NCBI GenBank assembly: GCA_019306185.1
Contig: JAFDMD010000006.1
Location: forward strand, 1 to 38,366
Length of the DNA stretch: 38,366 nucleotides
Direction of reading: 5' to 3'
Origin: Deltaproteobacteria bacterium
Lineage (GTDB): Bacteria > Desulfobacterota > Desulfobacteria > Desulfobacterales > JAFDMD01
The translations under genes were made by a program, and so were the position numbers. The stretch's first letter is position 1, and each line of letters begins with the position of its first letter. The notes under the pieces are model-generated. The model was not told where the DNA came from and ran no database searches. It worked only from the letters and a program-made list of their open reading frames with translations. Of the stretch, positions 4,077 through 36,530 are shown piece by piece.

Positions 4077-4094
4077 AATAAACCCCTCCTTTTT

Positions 4095-4238
4095 AAATTT
4101 CGGAGGATAACTTCGCAGTTTCTCCGTTTGCGGCGTTATACTCAAATTTTAATACTCGAAATACTGTAAGTATTCCTGCGTTTAAAATTTTCGTAAGCCT
4201 TGCAACCGAAGGAACTGCTTTGTTATCCTCCGAAATTT
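4095..4238. repeat. Module A element with 17-bp perfect terminal inverted repeats
   Basis: AAATTTCGGAGGATAAC (4095-4111) is the exact inverted complement of GTTATCCTCCGAAATTT (4222-4238). The match continues imperfectly inward (CGCAGTTTCTCCG against GGAACTGC), giving arms of about 40 nt. The interior holds the module A core (ACTCGAAATACTG, GTATTCCTGCG, AAGCCTTGCAA). This is the most complete copy of the family. It lies directly upstream of paaK, and its left arm begins 18 nt before the paaK ATG. After it, 4270-4300 carries a broken module B. Confidence 0.8.
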
Positions 4239-18440: not shown

Positions 18441-18536
18441 ATTCGTGTATATTTATAGGATTAAGAAATTTTTCAACGCCGTAAACGAACAAACTATAAA
18501 GTCATACGGCAAACTTTTAATAAGGGGAAGTTAATT

Positions 18537-19434: not shown

Positions 19435-20022
19435 TAGTCGATACTGAAAAAATTAATAAAAAGCGTAAAAAATGAGCCGTTCGGTTAATTATCCGATAAT
19501 TCAATTTGTCAGTATCGGAGTTTGTTTGCCCCGCTTTTTGCTTGTCGTCTCGGATTTTCGGCTTGCTTTGTCTTAACCCAAAACCAGCCGAAAATTGTTT
19601 CCTTGACGGCAAGAGCCGCTACGCAAATAAAACTACCGCCTTTGATAGTAATGAATGTTTCCTCTTAATATTTGCAAGAAAATGTTAAGGGTAGTATTGA
19701 CCGCTTGCAAATTTTAAGAGGAAACGTCCGGTATTAAAAAAAATCTAATCATAAAAAATAATGATTAAATTCTTACAAAAGGTTAAAGGATAAAGGCAGA
19801 AGTCAATAATAAAGGGATTTCTCCCTTCGGTTCGAAATGACAGGGGAAATTGAACATAAGTTATTTTTGCTTGTCATTTCGACGAGCAAAGCGAGGAGAA
19901 ATCCCTTAATAAAAAGCGAAAAAGTAATAACAAGTTGATTTTTTATATTTTTTATTAAATTTTAACTTAAGGCATCGGCAAAACCGTTTAAGCTTAAAAT
20001 GCAGCTTTTTTAGCATCGACTA
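19435..20022. repeat. Large composite repeat bounded by inverted module C ends
   Basis: TAGTCGATACTGAAAAAA (19435-19452) and TTTTTTAGCATCGACTA (20006-20022) are near inverted complements and enclose about 590 bp. Inside are module F (TTTGTTTGCCCCGC...GGATTTTCGGCTTG, also at 33727-33775), hairpin D (19657-19725), module E (from about 19768), opposed module B cores (19802-19840 and 19878-19912), and module C. No gene can be read in it. It occupies the whole gap between the two radical SAM genes. Confidence 0.75.
19657..19725. repeat. Hairpin module D with 22-bp arms
   Basis: GTTTCCTCTTAATATTTGCAAG (as GTTTCCTCTTAATATTTGCA plus AG, 19657-19678) pairs with the inverted arm at 19704-19725 (CTTGCAAATTTTAAGAGG plus AAAC) with one mismatch. 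The loop is 25 nt (AAAATGTTAAGGGTAGTATT plus GACCG). The loop and left arm are repeated at 464-511 with few changes, and the right arm there (512-526) is shorter. The conserved loop sequence in two distant copies suggests the loop itself matters or that the copying was recent. Confidence 0.75.
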
Positions 20023-21078: not shown

Positions 21079-23970
21079 TTAATATTTAAATATAGATTCT
21101 CTTAACTTTTTTTTCGATTTTTGCGCTGTTTTTATTATCTGTTTTAAAACCGCTATTTGCTCGAAACGGGCGTTGAGTTTTTCGGCTATTTTGTTTTGAA
21201 TGGAAATGGGGTGATAATCTATCTCTATTTCCGCAAACTGCTTTGCGCTTATGTTTGCCTGACCGCCGGACTGTTTTGCCGCGGACGAAATGTATTTTCT
21301 ATATTTTTTCTGAGCAAACAGATATTTAAGGTAATAAGGGTTTAGATGTTCATTAAACTTGAATCTTATAAGATAGGACGCCCAAGTTCCGGAAAAATCA
21401 AAATCTATTACTCCGGATTTTCCTACAAGCTCGGCACTGTTTGTTCGGTTAAAGATAAAATCTCCTTTTTGAAACAGTCTGTGAGGCGGAAGTTCTATAT
21501 CCGTATATTTTAAATCGTCAAGGTTCCAATTTCCCAAGGCGTCGAGGTTGTTCATACGCAAAACAGGATATTTGCCCTTTTGCTTACATTTGGAGGATAT
21601 GCCGTAAAGACTGTTTGTAATAAATTCTTTAAGTATTCTTTTTCCTTTTGTTTCCGGTATTTCTATGTTTGAAAGCTCTTTGATTAATTGAGAAGCGTTT
21701 TTAACAATATTTTTTCTGTTTTTTATTTTATTTAGAAATTCGCTTTGAAATTTTAAAGAGGGTAGGGGAATTATCCATTTTTTCAGGTCATCTATCGATA
21801 AATCCATTCGTACGGAGCCGCGGACTTTTTCTTGTATAAAGTTTAAAAAGTTTTTTGTTTTAAACAGGCAGTCTAAAAATTCCGGCAGTATTTTTTTTTG
21901 ATTTGCGCTAAAAACCTTATAATATCCGGTTATAATCTGATTATCATAATCAAAAGGGGATAACCCTATGGCTCCTATGTTTATTCGACTTGGGTTGTAG
22001 CAAAAATCATTTTTTTTGATCTTAAAATGGGAGCGTTTTATTTTTTCTCCGAGTTCCTCTCTGTTTATAAAAACCCCTTGTTTATTATTTACCCCCAGTA
22101 TTTTAAAAATATTATTTGGAAAGTCTAAAAGGTTTATTTTGTTTGTTTTCGGTTGTATAATTTCTTGAAGGCGGACGGTTGTAAAACCGCTTTTTATTGT
22201 TTCGGCTTTAAAGTAGGTTTTAGGATCAAGCCTTTCTTTAATGTTGTTTTCGTTTACCGTAAATATTTTTTCGTTTTCTTCAAACTTTTTATTATTTATA
22301 TGTTTATGAAACGCTTCGGCTATTTTTCCAAGATCGCTTTGATCCGGTCTGCCGGCGGAATCAAAACCTATTTTTTTAGGAAGAGCCATGAATATTTTAT
22401 TGGCGTATTGTTTGTTTGGAAGAAGCTTTTCTAAAAAGAGCATAGAGGTTTTTACATTTGCTCCGGACCTTATAAAAGCCTGTCGAGGCAGGGATATTAT
22501 GGCGAGTATTTTGCAGTTGTTTTTTATATATTGTCTGGTTGCGGTATTATTTGCCCCGTTTAGTATAATATCCGGCAGCACTATCGCCATTTTGCCGGAC
22601 GGCTTTAAAAGCCTGATGCATCGTTCTAAAAAAAGGACTTCGCTTCTTTGCATTTTTCTATTTTTCCCTGCAAGGGAAAATCGCTCCAACACTTTTTTTT
22701 TTTCCACTTTGGAGCCAAAAGGCGGATTTGTAAATACCTTATGAAAAACTTCTTCTTTTATCATGTCCGTATCAAAAAGTCCGTCCTGATGATAAAGTGA
22801 GGCTGTCCCCGCTCCATGAATATACATGTTGGTTTTACATGCTATGGTAAGTTTTTTATTTATATCTGTTCCAAAGATAGAACCTTGACATAATTTTTCA
22901 ATTTCTTCTATTTTTTTTTCTTGTATTATATCTTCGCTTATTATGTTTTCTCTTAGCACTTTAAATGCTTCAACCAAAAAGCCGCCGGAACCGAATGCCG
23001 GATCTATTATTTTTTCTCCATGTTTTACTCCGAGCATGTCTATTGCAAAGTCAACAAGACTTCGGGGCGTAAAATATTGTCCGAGGCGCTCGCCTCTAAA
23101 TACGGTGGTTAAAAAGTTTTCAAAAGCAAGCCCTATTATTTCATGTTCGGTTTCAAGAAAACCCTGATTATCAAGGAGTTTGATTATTGCAAAAATGCTT
23201 TCGCCGCATATCCTTATTTTTGTTTTTTTATCAAATATTTTTTCTTTAAATTGATAATCTTCTATAGCGTCTTCAAAGATTCTATTAGCGGTTTTTTTTA
23301 CTTTTTCAAAATCTGTTTTTCCATTTGTTTCGCATTCCATCAAAAAGTATTTTTCCGTAAATTTGTTTTCCGTATAGGTTTCTACGGCTTGTCTTTCGGA
23401 TTGTCTTTTGATGTAGATTATTTTATTCATCTCGTCAAAAGCGTCTAATGGAGTAAAACCGTCGTTGCTGCGCATTATATTATGACATTTTTCCAGCGCG
23501 CCTATTATTTCTTTTGTATTTTTATAACCTTCGACTACAAATTTTTGGCTTTCTTCTATATGTCGCGCCGAGAGTTCGCCTTTGATGGAAAAAACTTCTT
23601 TAAGGGTTGGAACGCCTTGTTTCAATCTTTTTTTTGTAACTGTGTTGTAAACTTTCCACTCATTTCCGTTTGTAATTACGGCTATTTTAACGGGCGGATT
23701 ATGCAGCCTTGCATAAGATATGGCATTCTGCTTTTCCAAGTCTCTTATTCTTTGAGTAGGCTCTTTTATACCAACGCTTATTACGGGCATCATTTTATTT
23801 TCAACCGCAATTTTTATAATAATATCGGATTTTATCTTTATGGTTTTGCCGCCAAAAGTTACCGGAAACTCGGTTTTTTCAAATTCCATGTTTGCCTTTG
23901 AGTATCCGAGTTTTTCAAAATAAGGGATAATTATATCCTGTTTAATATCGGGGTTGTAAATTGTTCCCAT
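21079..23970 (-). CDS. Type IIG-like fused restriction-modification protein (R-M-S) with altered nuclease motif
   Basis: The 963-residue single chain has three parts. Residues 1-130 resemble the HsdR_N-type PD-(D/E)xK domain, with Asp49 in SDIIIK. In MPVISVGIKEP, where the catalytic ExK normally lies, Gly67 replaces Glu; Lys69 is kept. Residues 150-590 are an N6-adenine methylase, with QYFTPRSLVDF, DPAFGSG (323-329) and NPPF (415-418). The remainder holds two target-recognition units, one with VRGSVRMDLSIDDLKKWIIP and one with GGQANISAKQFAEIEI. It should methylate adenine in a bipartite site. Cleavage is doubtful because of the missing Glu, and no separate hsdR lies nearby. AAGGAA precedes the ATG. 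Confidence 0.9.
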   Translation of the reverse strand: MGTIYNPDIKQDIIIPYFEKLGYSKANMEFEKTEFPVTFGGKTIKIKSDIIIKIAVENKMMPVISVGIKEPTQRIRDLEKQNAISYARLHNPPVKIAVITNGNEWKVYNTVTKKRLKQGVPTLKEVFSIKGELSARHIEESQKFVVEGYKNTKEIIGALEKCHNIMRSNDGFTPLDAFDEMNKIIYIKRQSERQAVETYTENKFTEKYFLMECETNGKTDFEKVKKTANRIFEDAIEDYQFKEKIFDKKTKIRICGESIFAIIKLLDNQGFLETEHEIIGLAFENFLTTVFRGERLGQYFTPRSLVDFAIDMLGVKHGEKIIDPAFGSGGFLVEAFKVLRENIISEDIIQEKKIEEIEKLCQGSIFGTDINKKLTIACKTNMYIHGAGTASLYHQDGLFDTDMIKEEVFHKVFTNPPFGSKVEKKKVLERFSLAGKNRKMQRSEVLFLERCIRLLKPSGKMAIVLPDIILNGANNTATRQYIKNNCKILAIISLPRQAFIRSGANVKTSMLFLEKLLPNKQYANKIFMALPKKIGFDSAGRPDQSDLGKIAEAFHKHINNKKFEENEKIFTVNENNIKERLDPKTYFKAETIKSGFTTVRLQEIIQPKTNKINLLDFPNNIFKILGVNNKQGVFINREELGEKIKRSHFKIKKNDFCYNPSRINIGAIGLSPFDYDNQIITGYYKVFSANQKKILPEFLDCLFKTKNFLNFIQEKVRGSVRMDLSIDDLKKWIIPLPSLKFQSEFLNKIKNRKNIVKNASQLIKELSNIEIPETKGKRILKEFITNSLYGISSKCKQKGKYPVLRMNNLDALGNWNLDDLKYTDIELPPHRLFQKGDFIFNRTNSAELVGKSGVIDFDFSGTWASYLIRFKFNEHLNPYYLKYLFAQKKYRKYISSAAKQSGGQANISAKQFAEIEIDYHPISIQNKIAEKLNARFEQIAVLKQIIKTAQKSKKKLRESIFKY

Positions 23971-25167: not shown

Positions 25168-25440
25168 TAGTCGCTACTGAAAAACCTGCATTTTAAACTT
25201 AAACTGTTTTGCCGTCGCCTGAAGTTAAAGTTTAATAAAAGATGTAAAAAATCAACCTGTTATTACTTTTTTGCTTTTTATTAAGGGATTTCTCCTCGCT
25301 ACGCTCGTCGAAATGACAGGCAAAGATAATGTTTGTCGAAATGACAAGCGTAGCGAGGAGGTTTGTTGAAATGACACGGCAAAAATAAAAAGCTTGTCAT
25401 TCCGAAGCGAAGCGAGGAATCCCTTAATCATTTCCGACGC
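25168..25440 (-). repeat. Full module C-B element in reverse orientation plus amplified B cores
   Basis: Reading the plus strand: TAGTCGCTACTGAAAAACCT, CATTTTAAACTTAAACTG, TTTTGCCGTCGCCTGAAGTT, AATCAACCTGTTATTACTTT, TTAAGGGATTTCTCCTCGC. On the other strand this matches 18296-18440 and 19878-20022 along nearly 150 bp. After it, B tails face each other three more times to about 25440. An additional weak B pair is at 25490-25600. Confidence 0.8.
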
Positions 25441-25621
25441 CTTACAACAAATATCTCATTTTCATTGTATTGACTTTTGGGCGCGCTATATGTCGCTTTG
25501 CTTTACTCGTCGAAATGACAACCAAAAATAACTTATGTTAAAATAACAGACAAAAAAAATTCCGTCATTTTGAACGAAGCGAGAAATCCCTTTATTATTG
25601 CCTTGTTATGCAGTCGAATTG

Positions 25622-27490: not shown

Positions 27491-28234
27491 TTATTTAGAT
27501 AGAAACTCAATTATAACAGAATTATCGCTTTTTACAATTTCTTCCGGAGTTCCTTCAAAAATAATTTTTTTATTATCTATCATAGCAACGCGCTGAGATA
27601 TTTCAAAAATATCAGGGATTTCGTGGCTTACCACAACGCCGGTAAACCCGAATTTATCCTTATAATCGAAAATCATGCGATGCGCCTCTTTTTTTCTGAT
27701 AGGATCAAGCCCCGTAGTAGGCTCGTCAAAAAGAAGAATTTCGGGTTCGGTAATAAGGGCTCTTGCCAAAGCGACTCTTTTTTGCATTCCGCCGGAAAGT
27801 TGGGAAGGGTATCTGCTTCCTATACCTTCCAAGTCAAGCTTTTCCATAATATTTTCGACTCTTTTTTTTATTTCAAAAATAGGAGATTTTGTAGTCTCCG
27901 TTAAAGGTAGAGCTATATTATCAAAAACAGTCATAGAGTCAAATAAAGCGTTGCCCTGAAACATGTAACTGCATTTTTGTTTAAACCGGCTTCTTTTTTT
28001 GTCGCTGATGCCGGCGAGGGCATCTCCTTCGAATAGTATTTCGCCGGAATCCGGACTTAAAAGCCCGATAATATGTTTTAAAATAACGCTTTTTCCTATT
28101 CCGCTTTTTCCTATTATAGCGGTAATTTCGCCTTTAAATATGCTGAAGCTGACTTTATCAAGCACAAGATTTGCGCCGAAAGATTTCACTACATTTTTGA
28201 ATGTTATGATTTCTTTACTCATTTCGTTAACCAT
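27491..28234 (-). CDS. mlaF: ABC transporter ATPase MlaF
   Basis: This ABC ATPase has Walker A GKSGIGKS, signature LSGGMQKR and Walker B ILLFDEPTTGLD, with a final SHEIPDI switch. It powers MlaE to move phospholipid. Three start codons lie close together (28252, 28234 and 28222), and none has a good Shine-Dalgarno. I choose 28234 because it follows the stop of the 58-codon ORF at 28236-28238 after one base, giving coupling of the form TGAAATG. Start 28222 (MSKEIITF) best fits family length. The gene is 247 residues from 28234. Confidence 0.9.
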   Translation of the reverse strand: MVNEMSKEIITFKNVVKSFGANLVLDKVSFSIFKGEITAIIGKSGIGKSVILKHIIGLLSPDSGEILFEGDALAGISDKKRSRFKQKCSYMFQGNALFDSMTVFDNIALPLTETTKSPIFEIKKRVENIMEKLDLEGIGSRYPSQLSGGMQKRVALARALITEPEILLFDEPTTGLDPIRKKEAHRMIFDYKDKFGFTGVVVSHEIPDIFEISQRVAMIDNKKIIFEGTPEEIVKSDNSVIIEFLSK

Positions 28235-28235
28235 T

Positions 28236-28412
28236 TCAACATACCATTTCATTATGCGTTTTTTGATTTAGAACTTTAGGGTTAATAGTAATGTCAAGAT
28301 GTCTTGCAACGCTTTGCAAGTATGTTACATATGATTTTATCGAATTTGAACCTACTTTCCTTTTACTTTTAACGTATTTAATATATTGCTCTTGGCATTC
28401 AATTTCGTTCAT
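28236..28412 (-). CDS. 58-residue ORF inserted between mlaE and mlaF
   Basis: The frame MNEIECQEQYIKYVKSKRKV, then GSNSIKSYVTYLQSVARHLD, then ITINPKVLNQKTHNEMVC has AAGGAA about 8 nt before its ATG. I recognise a helical N-terminal region like the SAM-like DNA-binding segment of phage integrases or some restriction proteins (SNSIKSYVTYLQ). It has no catalytic domain, so it may be a remnant. Its stop is at 28236, next to the mlaF start. AAAGGATATATAAAAGGA upstream holds a tandem repeat of the Shine-Dalgarno. Whether it is a real product is uncertain. Confidence 0.5.
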   Translation of the reverse strand: MNEIECQEQYIKYVKSKRKVGSNSIKSYVTYLQSVARHLDITINPKVLNQKTHNEMVC

Positions 28413-28458
28413 TTGTTATTTCCTTTTATATATCCTTTTATATATCTGGCATATAAGT

Positions 28459-29265
28459 TTATAAAAGAAAGGAGGTTAAAACATAATCTCCCGCCATTAT
28501 GAAAACGGACGACGTTACTACGGCGGACGTGGTAGATTGGCTTACTCCTTTGGCTCCGAAACCGCCCCCTGTTTTATGGGTATAATATCCGTAATAACAG
28601 CATATGCCGGTAACAAGAAAGGCAAAAACCATCGACTTTACAAATCCTCCCGAAATATCGCTTATCGCAAGATTTGATTGAATGGAGGAGAAATAGGTTC
28701 CGGTATTTATATCTAATAGCAGGTAACCAGTCATAAAACCGCCCGCAATTCCTATTACGTCAAAGACTGCGGTTAATAGAGGAAAACTTATAATAGAGGC
28801 TATTATTTTAGGACTTATCAGAAAGCGGATAGGATTTATATCCATAGTTTTTAAAGCGTCAATCTGTTCCGAATTTCTCATAATCCCAATTTCCGCGGCT
28901 ATAGCGGAACCTGCTCTGCCGGTTATCATCAGCGCGGTTAAAACGGGTCCTAACTCTCTTATTATCGAAAGGGCTACGGCTGTCCCGAGCATTCCTTCGG
29001 CTCCGAATTTAACGAGAGTATAATATCCTTGAAGTCCCAGCACCATTCCTGTAAAGGAGCCGATAAGGCAGATGAGAAGGAGAGATTTTGCCCCGATAAA
29101 ATATATTTGGTATATAATTTTTGAAAACTGAAAAGGGGGGGTAAAGCAGAAAAAAAGCCCTTTTGTAAAAAGGATTGCAACTCTGCCTAATTTTTTTATG
29201 ATTTCAAGGGTTTTTTCGCCAAGAAATATAAAAGGGGACGTCGCTATATTATTTTTTTTTCGCAT
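28459..29265 (-). CDS. mlaE: Phospholipid ABC transporter permease MlaE
   Basis: The 268-residue integral membrane protein belongs to the MlaE/YrbE family. Landmarks are SFTGMVLGLQGYYTLVKFGA, SIIRELGPVLTALMITGRAG, SAIAAEIGIMRNSEQIDALK, PIRFLISPKIIASIISFPLL and the C-terminal ASP-rich helices. About five membrane helices are visible. It forms the permease core with MlaD and MlaF. The start overlaps the end of the DUF166 gene by 22 nt, and its Shine-Dalgarno is weak (AGAAG). The mlaE-before-mlaF order is the reverse of the E. coli mlaFEDCB order, and no mlaB is seen. Confidence 0.93.
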   Translation of the reverse strand: MRKKNNIATSPFIFLGEKTLEIIKKLGRVAILFTKGLFFCFTPPFQFSKIIYQIYFIGAKSLLLICLIGSFTGMVLGLQGYYTLVKFGAEGMLGTAVALSIIRELGPVLTALMITGRAGSAIAAEIGIMRNSEQIDALKTMDINPIRFLISPKIIASIISFPLLTAVFDVIGIAGGFMTGYLLLDINTGTYFSSIQSNLAISDISGGFVKSMVFAFLVTGICCYYGYYTHKTGGGFGAKGVSQSTTSAVVTSSVFIMAGDYVLTSFLL

Positions 29266-33824: not shown

Positions 33825-36530
33825 TTATCCTCCAAGATACTTTACAATTAAATTTATGCCCGCGCCCGTAGCTATTTTACTTCCTGTATTTAAAATCCAG
33901 TCGTATGCTCTATATAAAATTTTGCGGGCTTTTTGTTCGTTTCCTTTTTCCGCCTCTTTTTGAGCCTCTTCTATTATTTTTATATTTTCATTATCTTCGG
34001 GGTCGGTAGTATTTTTTTTAAGTTCTTTTATTAATGCGGGCAAAATTTCTAAAACCTCTTTCAAACCCGGATTAATGTTTATATTATTACCGGTATTATT
34101 TTGTCTGTTTCCCATATTGCCGTAAACATTGCCGCCCACATTGTAAGTAATATTATTATTACTATTCATCCCTTTATTCTTCTCCTCTTTTTTATAACTT
34201 ATTCCGTCAAGCAGATCACGGGCGCTTATAGAATTAAAAGATTTTAAACATTGTATTTTACCGGCTCTATCTTTGCTAATACATCTGTTTAAATCGTCTA
34301 ATTTGAAAAAATGAGGCTCCCCTTCTTTACATTCGGGGCATGCGCAGGCAAGTTTTTCTTTATATGTAATGCCTCGAAACGATTTTTTATGAATTTTCTC
34401 AATTTCGCCGCGTATTATATAAAGGCATTCTCTTTTATTCGGCGTATATCCGGAAATTCTAATATCGATAAATCTTATCCCCGCGTCCTTATCTATGTTA
34501 TCGAGAATGTAAGCGTCTGTTTCTTTATAATTTAAAACAACCCCTTTTTTCCAAACAAGCGGAGTTTTATTTTCTTTTTTTATATATTCGTTTAGCCTTA
34601 CTATTAAGCGGCTCATAATGCCTGCAGGCATAAACGGATATTCCGCTTTAAAGCGTAAATTCTCTTGATTATTCCAATCCTTAAAAGCGTCCGGCGCGTT
34701 ATCCGGCAAAAATTGAGGGGCAATATATTTTTTATTATCTATTTTATAACATATTTCAAAATTCTCTTTAAGCATTAAACTAAGCAGAATATTTTTTTCG
34801 CTTTCCTTATATTCCTTATCTTTTTTATATTTTTCATCCAAAAAACCAAAAAGGGTATCTTTTGTAAATCTGCCGTTATTATCGCTAATATCGCTATCTT
34901 TTAATATAAAATAAATAGGTTCGGTTATCCATTTGGGGTTTAAAAATATTTTGTCAGCCAAAGAAGCATGTTCGTAATAATTGAGTATGCCTATATTATT
35001 AAATGTTTTTAACACGATTTTTTGTTTCGCTTTGTCCGTAAGATTATATTTCTTGCAAATTGCATAAAACCTATCGATGTTAATGTAATCGGCTTTTTCC
35101 TTTTCCTTAATTGTATCTAATTTTTTTTTTATATTTATCCAGTTAGAAGGAACCGTAATTTTATTTTCAAATACCAGCTTTTTTATTTTTTTTTTAAGCA
35201 TGTTAAATCTTCCGTCTGTATCCGCTTGATTAGATAAATTTACGCTGATAGGATCGGGCATTTTTAACTCATTATTATAACGTTCTTTATATGTTTTATA
35301 ATCGAATACGCTGTTTTTATTTTTAATATCGATTTCGTTTTCCGCAACTAAAACGGTCGCTTTTTTTTCGCTATCTCCTTTGCCGAGCAAAGATATTATA
35401 TTAAACCAATAATCAAAATGCCCTGTTTCTTCACGCTTATCCGAAACCAGAATATATAAGGACTCCGGAGTTAAGAAAAAATGATGTATCATATATTGAA
35501 TTTGCTGCCCTCCGAAATCCCATAAATTAACCTTTAAGTCCGTATTATTATATTTAAAAACCCATTCTTGTATATCTATTCCTACGGTTGATTCTTCAGG
35601 TTCATCTTTACATGGAACTGTATATTCCGGCTCCGTAAGACGCTTCATTAAAGAGGTTTTTCCGGCTTTTGGTTCTCCTGCCAATAGAATTTTTAAATGA
35701 TATAAACTTTCTTCCCCTTTTTCTTTAATTTCTTTAAAAAAAACTCTTATCGCGTCTATTCCCTGCTTTATAACCGCCATAGGAGGATATGTTATCCGAT
35801 TTCCCCTTAGAGCAAGTTCAGTCAGGTTTTCCAGTTTGGTTATTGTATTCGGCAGCTTGGTTAATTGATTTTCGCTTAGATCAAGATAAGTCAGGTTTTC
35901 CAGTTTGGTTATTGTATTCGGCAGTTCGGTTAATTGATTTCCGCTTAGAGCAAGTAGAGTCAGGTTTTTCAGTTTGGTTATTATATTCGGCAGCTCGGTT
36001 AATTTGTTTTCGCTTAGATCAAGATAAGTCAGGTTTTCCAGTTTGGTTATTGTATTCGGCAGTTCGGTTAATTGATTTCCGCTTAGAGCAAGTTCAGTCA
36101 GGTTTTTCAGTTTGGTTATTATATTCGGCAGCTCGGTTAATTTGTTTTCGCTTAGAGCAAGATAAGTCAGGTTTTCCAGTTTGGTTATTGTATTCGGCAG
36201 TTCGGTTAATTGATTTCCGCTTAGAGCAAGTTCAGTCAGGTTTTTCAGTTTAGTTATTGTATTCGGCAGCTCGGTTAATTGATTTCTGCTTAGATTAAGA
36301 TAAGTCAGGTTTTTCAGTTCGGTTATTGTATTCGGCAGCTCGGTTAATTGATTTTCGCTTAGAGCAAGTTCAGTCAGGTTTGGCAGATTGCTTACGGCTT
36401 TAAAGATTTCATTTATATCTTTATTGCTTTTATCCGATAATTTGCCTCTAAGATCCAATATCTTTTTACCGGTTTTTTCGGTTTTTGAAATTATATTTAA
36501 TATTTCTGCGGTTGAGCGGTTATAAGACAT
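33825..36530 (-). CDS. LRR-Roc-COR (Roco family) GTPase with a C-terminal effector-like domain
   Basis: The 901-residue protein has a short N-terminal helix, nine 23-residue leucine-rich repeats (49-255, LxNLTxLxLSxNxLTELPN), and a Roc GTPase with GEPKAGKTS (285-293) and DFGGQ (338-342). NEID (398-401) stands in place of the usual NKxD. A COR dimerisation region follows, with VWKKGVVL and a metal-like CACPEC...C element. A Gly/Asn-rich linker (787-822, ITYNVGGNVYGNMGNRQNN) leads to a helical tail (823-901, ILPALIKELKK, ILNTGSKIATGAGINLIVKY). Roco proteins switch between nucleotide states. The tail resembles effector-associated modules of bacterial conflict proteins. AAAGGA precedes the ATG. 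Confidence 0.88.
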   Translation of the reverse strand: MSYNRSTAEILNIISKTEKTGKKILDLRGKLSDKSNKDINEIFKAVSNLPNLTELALSENQLTELPNTITELKNLTYLNLSRNQLTELPNTITKLKNLTELALSGNQLTELPNTITKLENLTYLALSENKLTELPNIITKLKNLTELALSGNQLTELPNTITKLENLTYLDLSENKLTELPNIITKLKNLTLLALSGNQLTELPNTITKLENLTYLDLSENQLTKLPNTITKLENLTELALRGNRITYPPMAVIKQGIDAIRVFFKEIKEKGEESLYHLKILLAGEPKAGKTSLMKRLTEPEYTVPCKDEPEESTVGIDIQEWVFKYNNTDLKVNLWDFGGQQIQYMIHHFFLTPESLYILVSDKREETGHFDYWFNIISLLGKGDSEKKATVLVAENEIDIKNKNSVFDYKTYKERYNNELKMPDPISVNLSNQADTDGRFNMLKKKIKKLVFENKITVPSNWINIKKKLDTIKEKEKADYINIDRFYAICKKYNLTDKAKQKIVLKTFNNIGILNYYEHASLADKIFLNPKWITEPIYFILKDSDISDNNGRFTKDTLFGFLDEKYKKDKEYKESEKNILLSLMLKENFEICYKIDNKKYIAPQFLPDNAPDAFKDWNNQENLRFKAEYPFMPAGIMSRLIVRLNEYIKKENKTPLVWKKGVVLNYKETDAYILDNIDKDAGIRFIDIRISGYTPNKRECLYIIRGEIEKIHKKSFRGITYKEKLACACPECKEGEPHFFKLDDLNRCISKDRAGKIQCLKSFNSISARDLLDGISYKKEEKNKGMNSNNNITYNVGGNVYGNMGNRQNNTGNNININPGLKEVLEILPALIKELKKNTTDPEDNENIKIIEEAQKEAEKGNEQKARKILYRAYDWILNTGSKIATGAGINLIVKYLGG
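35766..36386 (-). repeat. Tandem 69-bp leucine-rich repeat array (9 units)
   Basis: Nine 69-bp units inside the Roco gene are nearly identical at the DNA level. Units 3-4 and 5-6 repeat as a 138-bp pair (LKNLTELALSGNQL..., then LENLTYLxLSENKL...), and 7-8 is a slightly changed pair. This higher-order dimer pattern means recent tandem duplication. Units 1, 2 and 9 are more diverged, as expected for the ends of an expanding array. Confidence 0.9.

Follow-up and report, generated by a model that had tools for sequence, protein, structure and literature searches.

The question raised by this locus is what a 58-codon open reading frame (ORF) is doing between two intact genes of an mla operon. Within the window, by which we mean the whole stretch of DNA analysed (38,366 nucleotides), the ORF occupies positions 28236 to 28412 of the minus strand, running from an ATG at 28412 to a TGA at 28238–28236. 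On the same strand it lies between the permease gene mlaE (28459–29265; Pfam MlaE) and the ABC ATPase gene mlaF (27491–28234; Pfam ABC_tran), and Pfam also confirmed MlaD, MlaC and MlaA around it, all of these genes being intact. The mlaE–mlaF spacer measures 236 bp in this genome. The 46 nt from the mlaE stop to the ORF ATG (28413–28458, minus strand) form a leader that holds a Shine-Dalgarno (SD) sequence, AAAAGGAAA, while at the other end a single base, A, separates the ORF stop from an mlaF ATG at 28234 to give the arrangement TGA-A-ATG. The first-pass annotation was thus correct as to the frame, its own (modest) SD and its ending one base before a possible mlaF start. Three such starts are available on the minus strand: an in-frame ATG at 28252, located inside the ORF; the ATG at 28234, which reads MVNEMSKE...; and that at 28222 (MSKE), the start that agrees with two relatives of the same genus (congeners).

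No Rfam family reached its gathering threshold within the window. A scan of 28150–28650 for promoters and terminators gave a single promoter-like site (plus strand) and a single terminator-like site, which is on the minus strand and falls within the end of mlaE (28509–28490); both are within shuffle expectation. The species is represented by one genome (170 contigs, contamination estimate 5.87%), and an assembly error at the mlaE–mlaF junction is conceivable. Elsewhere in the window, two large genes were identified by eye: a 901-codon protein at 33825–36530 with leucine-rich repeats followed by an apparent Roc/COR-type GTPase part, and a 963-codon protein at 21079–23970 that appears to be a fused type I restriction-modification M and S protein.

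The identity of the ORF product came from plasmid sequences. A tblastn search of 72,556 plasmids (7.3 Gb) with the ORF returned a single match at E ≤ 10, with an E value of 8e-4, to WP_286241125.1, a hypothetical protein of 279 aa encoded on the Neptuniibacter halophilus plasmid pLMG25378 (NZ_AP027293.1). The likeness is confined to the N-terminal ~55 residues, in which 21 of 44 aligned columns are identical and the two start codons align to within one or two residues. In contrast to the ORF, WP_286241125.1 contains a full N-terminal module, with a sub-cut-off match to Phage_int_SAM_1 (E 0.0041), and a PDDEXK_5-like domain, also sub-cut-off (E 0.0018). When this protein was in turn used as query, 37 plasmid records matched. 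Counting the protein itself, only two did so across 80% or more of its length, and most of the others cover the C-terminal part only. A second relative reached in this way, WP_279771404.1 (291 aa, Shewanella xiamenensis plasmid), shares 18 of 50 aligned columns with the ORF and gives sub-cut-off matches to PDDEXK_5 (E 0.003), PhyH (E 0.0023) and Phage_int_SAM_1 (E 0.14). It is annotated as a member of the phytanoyl-CoA dioxygenase family. That label may be mistaken: its PhyH match is below threshold, and the protein (L054, 601–1476) resembles a SAM-like + PD-(D/E)XK protein, also at sub-threshold level. A third, more distant protein, from Methylobacterium bullatum, has a weak SAM-like N terminus (E 0.037) and does not match the ORF by BLASTP. 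The PD-(D/E)XK nuclease assignment of these relatives is a weak one, drawn from matches below cut-off, to which NCBIfam, PADLOC and PDB searches add nothing.

The relationship was also examined with a profile built from the N termini of the two plasmid relatives, against which the ORF scores 32.4 bits compared with 15.2 bits for the best of 20,000 shuffles, a score that is flattering in that the profile contains the sequence that the ORF itself had found. The reverse search provides a cleaner test: among 395 genomes of the phylum, the source genome included, the Neptuniibacter N terminus finds this ORF alone at E ≤ 0.001. When the query was the entire Neptuniibacter protein, matches at E ≤ 0.01 came from 2 of 146 genomes. 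In the source genome the match is this ORF and nothing else, and in the second genome, from a member of the order, it is the C-terminal part only, in a 165-codon gene. No donor above 48% identity was found, and short-pattern scans of GTDB and of viral contigs, which detect close relatives only, returned nothing with either the ORF or its relative as query.

These data bear on whether the ORF is coding in ancestry at all. In favour of a chance open frame in spacer DNA, the ORF has a codon score within the range of off-frame windows (41% of 298 such windows score higher), and the spacers of the congeners look non-coding. However, homology that beats 20,000 shuffles and is recovered in the reverse direction speaks against chance, as does the low frequency with which first-order Markov sequences of the spacer's own composition yield a 58-codon ORF (0.3–0.4% of 5000). 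We therefore regard a frame arising by chance as very improbable.

Comparison with the plasmid proteins further shows that the ORF is truncated. Only the first ~55 residues of the SAM-like module are represented; the frame ends at the equivalent of residue ~55–59, inside an N-terminal module of ~90 residues, so that the complete module is absent, and the ORF also lacks the C-terminal PD-(D/E)XK-like domain. Nothing matching the rest of a Neptuniibacter-type protein was found elsewhere in the source genome at E ≤ 0.01. Because the ORF lacks the C-terminal domain and the genome gave no match to it at E ≤ 0.01, the ORF is a fragment rather than a working member of the SAM-like + PD-(D/E)XK group. 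The likely account is that a gene for a SAM-like + probable PD-(D/E)XK nuclease was acquired horizontally and that its truncated 5′ end, with ~52 homologous codons, now sits as the ORF at the mlaE–mlaF junction; capture of a leader and SD may have accompanied this.

The first-pass annotation had proposed an integrase-type remnant with a DNA-binding N-terminal domain. The word remnant fits the truncated homology and the DNA-binding domain draws support from a sub-threshold Pfam match and from homology, but the integrase-type part, though close, calls for correction, the nearest full-length relatives having a weak PD-(D/E)XK match and no integrase domain. Residues 8–54 match Phage_int_SAM_1 (PF02899) with 18.8 bits against a cut-off of 22.3 (E 0.002), and the best NCBIfam match, itself unconvincing, is to XerD (E 0.017); unrelated, chance-like Pfam matches to the ORF begin at E ~0.02, the next after Phage_int_SAM_1 being at 0.021. 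These similarities could be taken to mean that the ORF derives from a tyrosine recombinase and not from a nuclease. Yet no integrase catalytic domain lies downstream of the ORF or in its best full-length relatives, and phage records contain no match at E ≤ 10 to the ORF and none to its relative; PHROGs likewise gave nothing convincing (best E 0.11). Moreover, the only candidate for the ORF in its own genome is the ORF itself, although Xer-type recombinases are present there. An origin from a tyrosine recombinase thus appears improbable, and a nuclease-gene fragment is the better account.

Might the fragment nonetheless encode a functional small protein of the Mla system, whether an adaptor or a DNA-binding regulator? 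The ORF is open and has an SD, and single-sequence AlphaFold2 predicts three helices (mean pLDDT 69, pTM 0.42). Against a working protein, however, stand its distribution, its partial domain and its composition. The ORF has no match at E ≤ 1 in the two congener genomes and is absent from their mla loci. A search of 96 genomes, the source genome among them, gave matches at E ≤ 1 in 20, with 0.16 as the best non-self E value, so the 93 further relatives contain no convincing match. Only part of a domain is matched; Foldseek searches of the PDB with the predicted model gave no match under E 1.9, a PDB sequence search returned one match at E 4.6, and PADLOC recognised neither the ORF nor its Neptuniibacter relative. 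In addition, the codon use of the ORF is unlike that of its host. Every one of the 149 58-codon windows from genes has a higher codon score (these genes also trained the codon table, so that their scores are flattered), and the ORF's GC content is 29% compared with 38% for the genes of the window. The low GC and codon score fit foreign or decaying DNA and remain compatible with translation, though a young gene that works can have an unusual codon score too. With all 58 codons still open, decay is not advanced. A dedicated Mla protein is hard to credit on this evidence, and the small adaptor that had been suggested for the ORF finds no footing in it; the ORF probably represents debris, not a functional protein.

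To place the fragment in context, the mlaE–mlaF junction was compared among relatives. MlaF used as query matched in 40 of 40 genomes, and loci were made for 30. The two congeners encode MlaF proteins 93% and 85% identical to that of the source species, and their mlaE–mlaF gaps are 271 bp (G002) and 263 bp, compared with 236 bp here. The congener spacers have no recognisable similarity to the 236 bp of the window, and no filling is shared among the three. Among the other 27 mlaF loci, mlaE was not detectable in one (L006). In 21 of the remaining 26, all outside the genus, the genes are separated by at most 15 bp or overlap (at L023 and L028 the overlap was estimated from the alignment), and in five (L009, L026, L027, L030 and L031) the gap is ~99–526 bp. 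MlaF is less than 48% identical in four of these five long-gap loci and in several of the 21, and such copies may be paralogues. Thus all three species of the genus that were compared have a long mlaE–mlaF junction, each with a different filling. In G002 the spacer contains a 147-bp near-palindromic repeat that ends 4 bp before the mlaF ATG, the remainder being mostly non-repetitive, whereas a large part of the G001 spacer, mainly positions 85–230 and 1–65, matches other dispersed repeats. One of these is also present as short copies in the window, at 25395–25433, 25564–25599 and 19805–19844. The ORF itself occurs once in its own genome. At the DNA level, the best 40 scored matches from each of the three congeneric genomes include no second copy, the other matches being short and of E 7.5e-4 or weaker.

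The near-palindromic repeat of ~147 bp is dispersed in its own right. It is found in the window at 60–179, 604–724, 4092–4238 and 18450–18520, and at 2234–2380 of the G002 locus (L003). With 40 candidates scored per genome, at least 63 (G000), at least 55 (G001) and at least 72 (G002) matches were obtained at E ≤ 1, counts that include short, split and opposite-strand matches. Comparison of 11 aligned copies by eye shows an almost invariant core, ATAAC...GTTAT, and outer arms whose two ends vary in concert. Three of five copies folded into one long hairpin and the two partial ones did not. In 8 of 16 copies an ORF of at least 60 codons starts within 35 bp of the 3′ side of the repeat; the opposite side has one in 2 of 16 copies, and random places in 16% of cases. 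These are copies of at least 100 nt, the shorter copy in the window and one duplicate locus being left out. The arms are reminiscent of integron attC sites. For the integron integrase model TIGR02249, every match was sub-cut-off, in the three genomes as well as in each of 14 control genomes, which is the outcome expected for Xer-type recombinases.

Two short repeats at the edges of the fragment are compatible with junction scars, though they do not prove the route by which it arrived. The first is an 8-bp direct repeat, AACGAAAT, whose two copies flank the nuclease-like codons: the left copy is at 28402–28409 (minus strand), and the right copy (28221–28228, minus strand) overlaps the MSKE start of mlaF. 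It is short and absent from the automated repeat listing, and its probability of about 0.007 comes from a test devised after the repeat had been sighted. The second, a possible junction scar, is a 13-bp imperfect tandem duplication (85%) at 28230–28255 on the minus strand, where the homology has its 3′ edge. A transposon-type insertion was also considered and set aside, as inspection by eye revealed no evident terminal inverted repeat between the 8-bp copies, and no transposase mechanism is claimed.

How, then, is mlaF translated behind this fragment? For the sequence upstream of the ORF, TATAAAAGGAAATAACAA-ATG, the energy of pairing to the anti-SD is −5.8 kcal/mol, comparable to ssb, iorA, hdr and the leucine-rich repeat gene within the window. 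This SD is modest, since 10% of random 22-mers from the window attain the same value. The three candidate mlaF starts have weak or no SDs (−2.7, −2.9 and +1.0 kcal/mol; null median −1.85), in agreement with the first-pass annotation, and mlaF is equally devoid of a good SD in both congeners. Weak SDs (−3.3 or weaker) were also observed at 6 of 23 other listed start sites, taken mechanically (lolA, mlaC, mlaE, DUF166, parA and oppF). On the mlaF strand of the congener spacers, no closed ORF exceeds 7 and 11 codons, respectively; at L003 the mlaF frame itself extends without a stop as far as a TTG lying 126 nt upstream. Because mlaF lacks an SD in congeners that have no upstream ORF to couple to, it can presumably start uncoupled, and the earlier suggestion that mlaF translation may depend on the ORF does not extend to a general need: obligatory coupling is not required, since congeners without the ORF start mlaF in the same way. 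In this species, reinitiation is possible.

These observations frame an alternative in which the fragment has been co-opted as an upstream ORF: ribosomes translating it would be retained on the message and pass to mlaF through termination-reinitiation at TGA-A-ATG, thereby setting the dose of MlaF. The contrast between a modest SD before the ORF and none before mlaF speaks for such a role, and the geometry of TGA-A-ATG, with stop and start one base apart and an overlapping in-frame ATG at 28252, is compatible with translational coupling. However, in the two congeners mlaF is started with neither an SD nor a closed spacer ORF of more than 11 codons on that strand (albeit with the mlaF frame open in L003), weak SDs are found at 6 of the 23 other start sites, and the ORF lacks conservation. 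Co-option as an upstream ORF is accordingly a possibility that we rate as unlikely.

The fate of the mlaF SD may be visible in the leader. In the window the sequence TATATAAAAGGAAA stands before the ORF, and in G002 TATTAAAAGG stands directly before the repeat. Judged from these two sequences, they may represent the old mlaF SD, with a different stretch of DNA in each species now standing between it and the start codon; no clear counterpart is seen in G001. We infer the following course of events for a nuclease-gene fragment. It would have become lodged at the mlaE–mlaF junction after the species split and may have captured the leader and SD that formerly served mlaF. Translation of the ORF is conceivable, because it has an SD and a position within the operon. 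The product, which is probably inert, would be an incomplete helical peptide with the first ~55 residues of a DNA-binding-type module of ~90. mlaF would be started on its own, or in part by ribosomes that end at TGA-A-ATG and restart.

A broader reading, which is tentative and which we rather doubt, is that the mlaE–mlaF junction of the genus is a recurrent landing site, having received a nuclease-gene fragment, a 147-bp palindromic repeat and a repeat mosaic before the mlaF start, in at least two species behind an apparent old mlaF SD. MlaF would thereby have become uncoupled from MlaE translation, the link being replaced here by a captured foreign ORF that relays ribosomes to mlaF. Most likely, the ORF is an ordinary gene fragment at a junction that tolerates insertions. 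As seen here, an operon can absorb foreign DNA and keep all its genes, even where the junction concerned is tight in most relatives outside the genus (21 of 26). The mlaF junction also offers a modest natural example for studying translation of a gene that lacks an SD.
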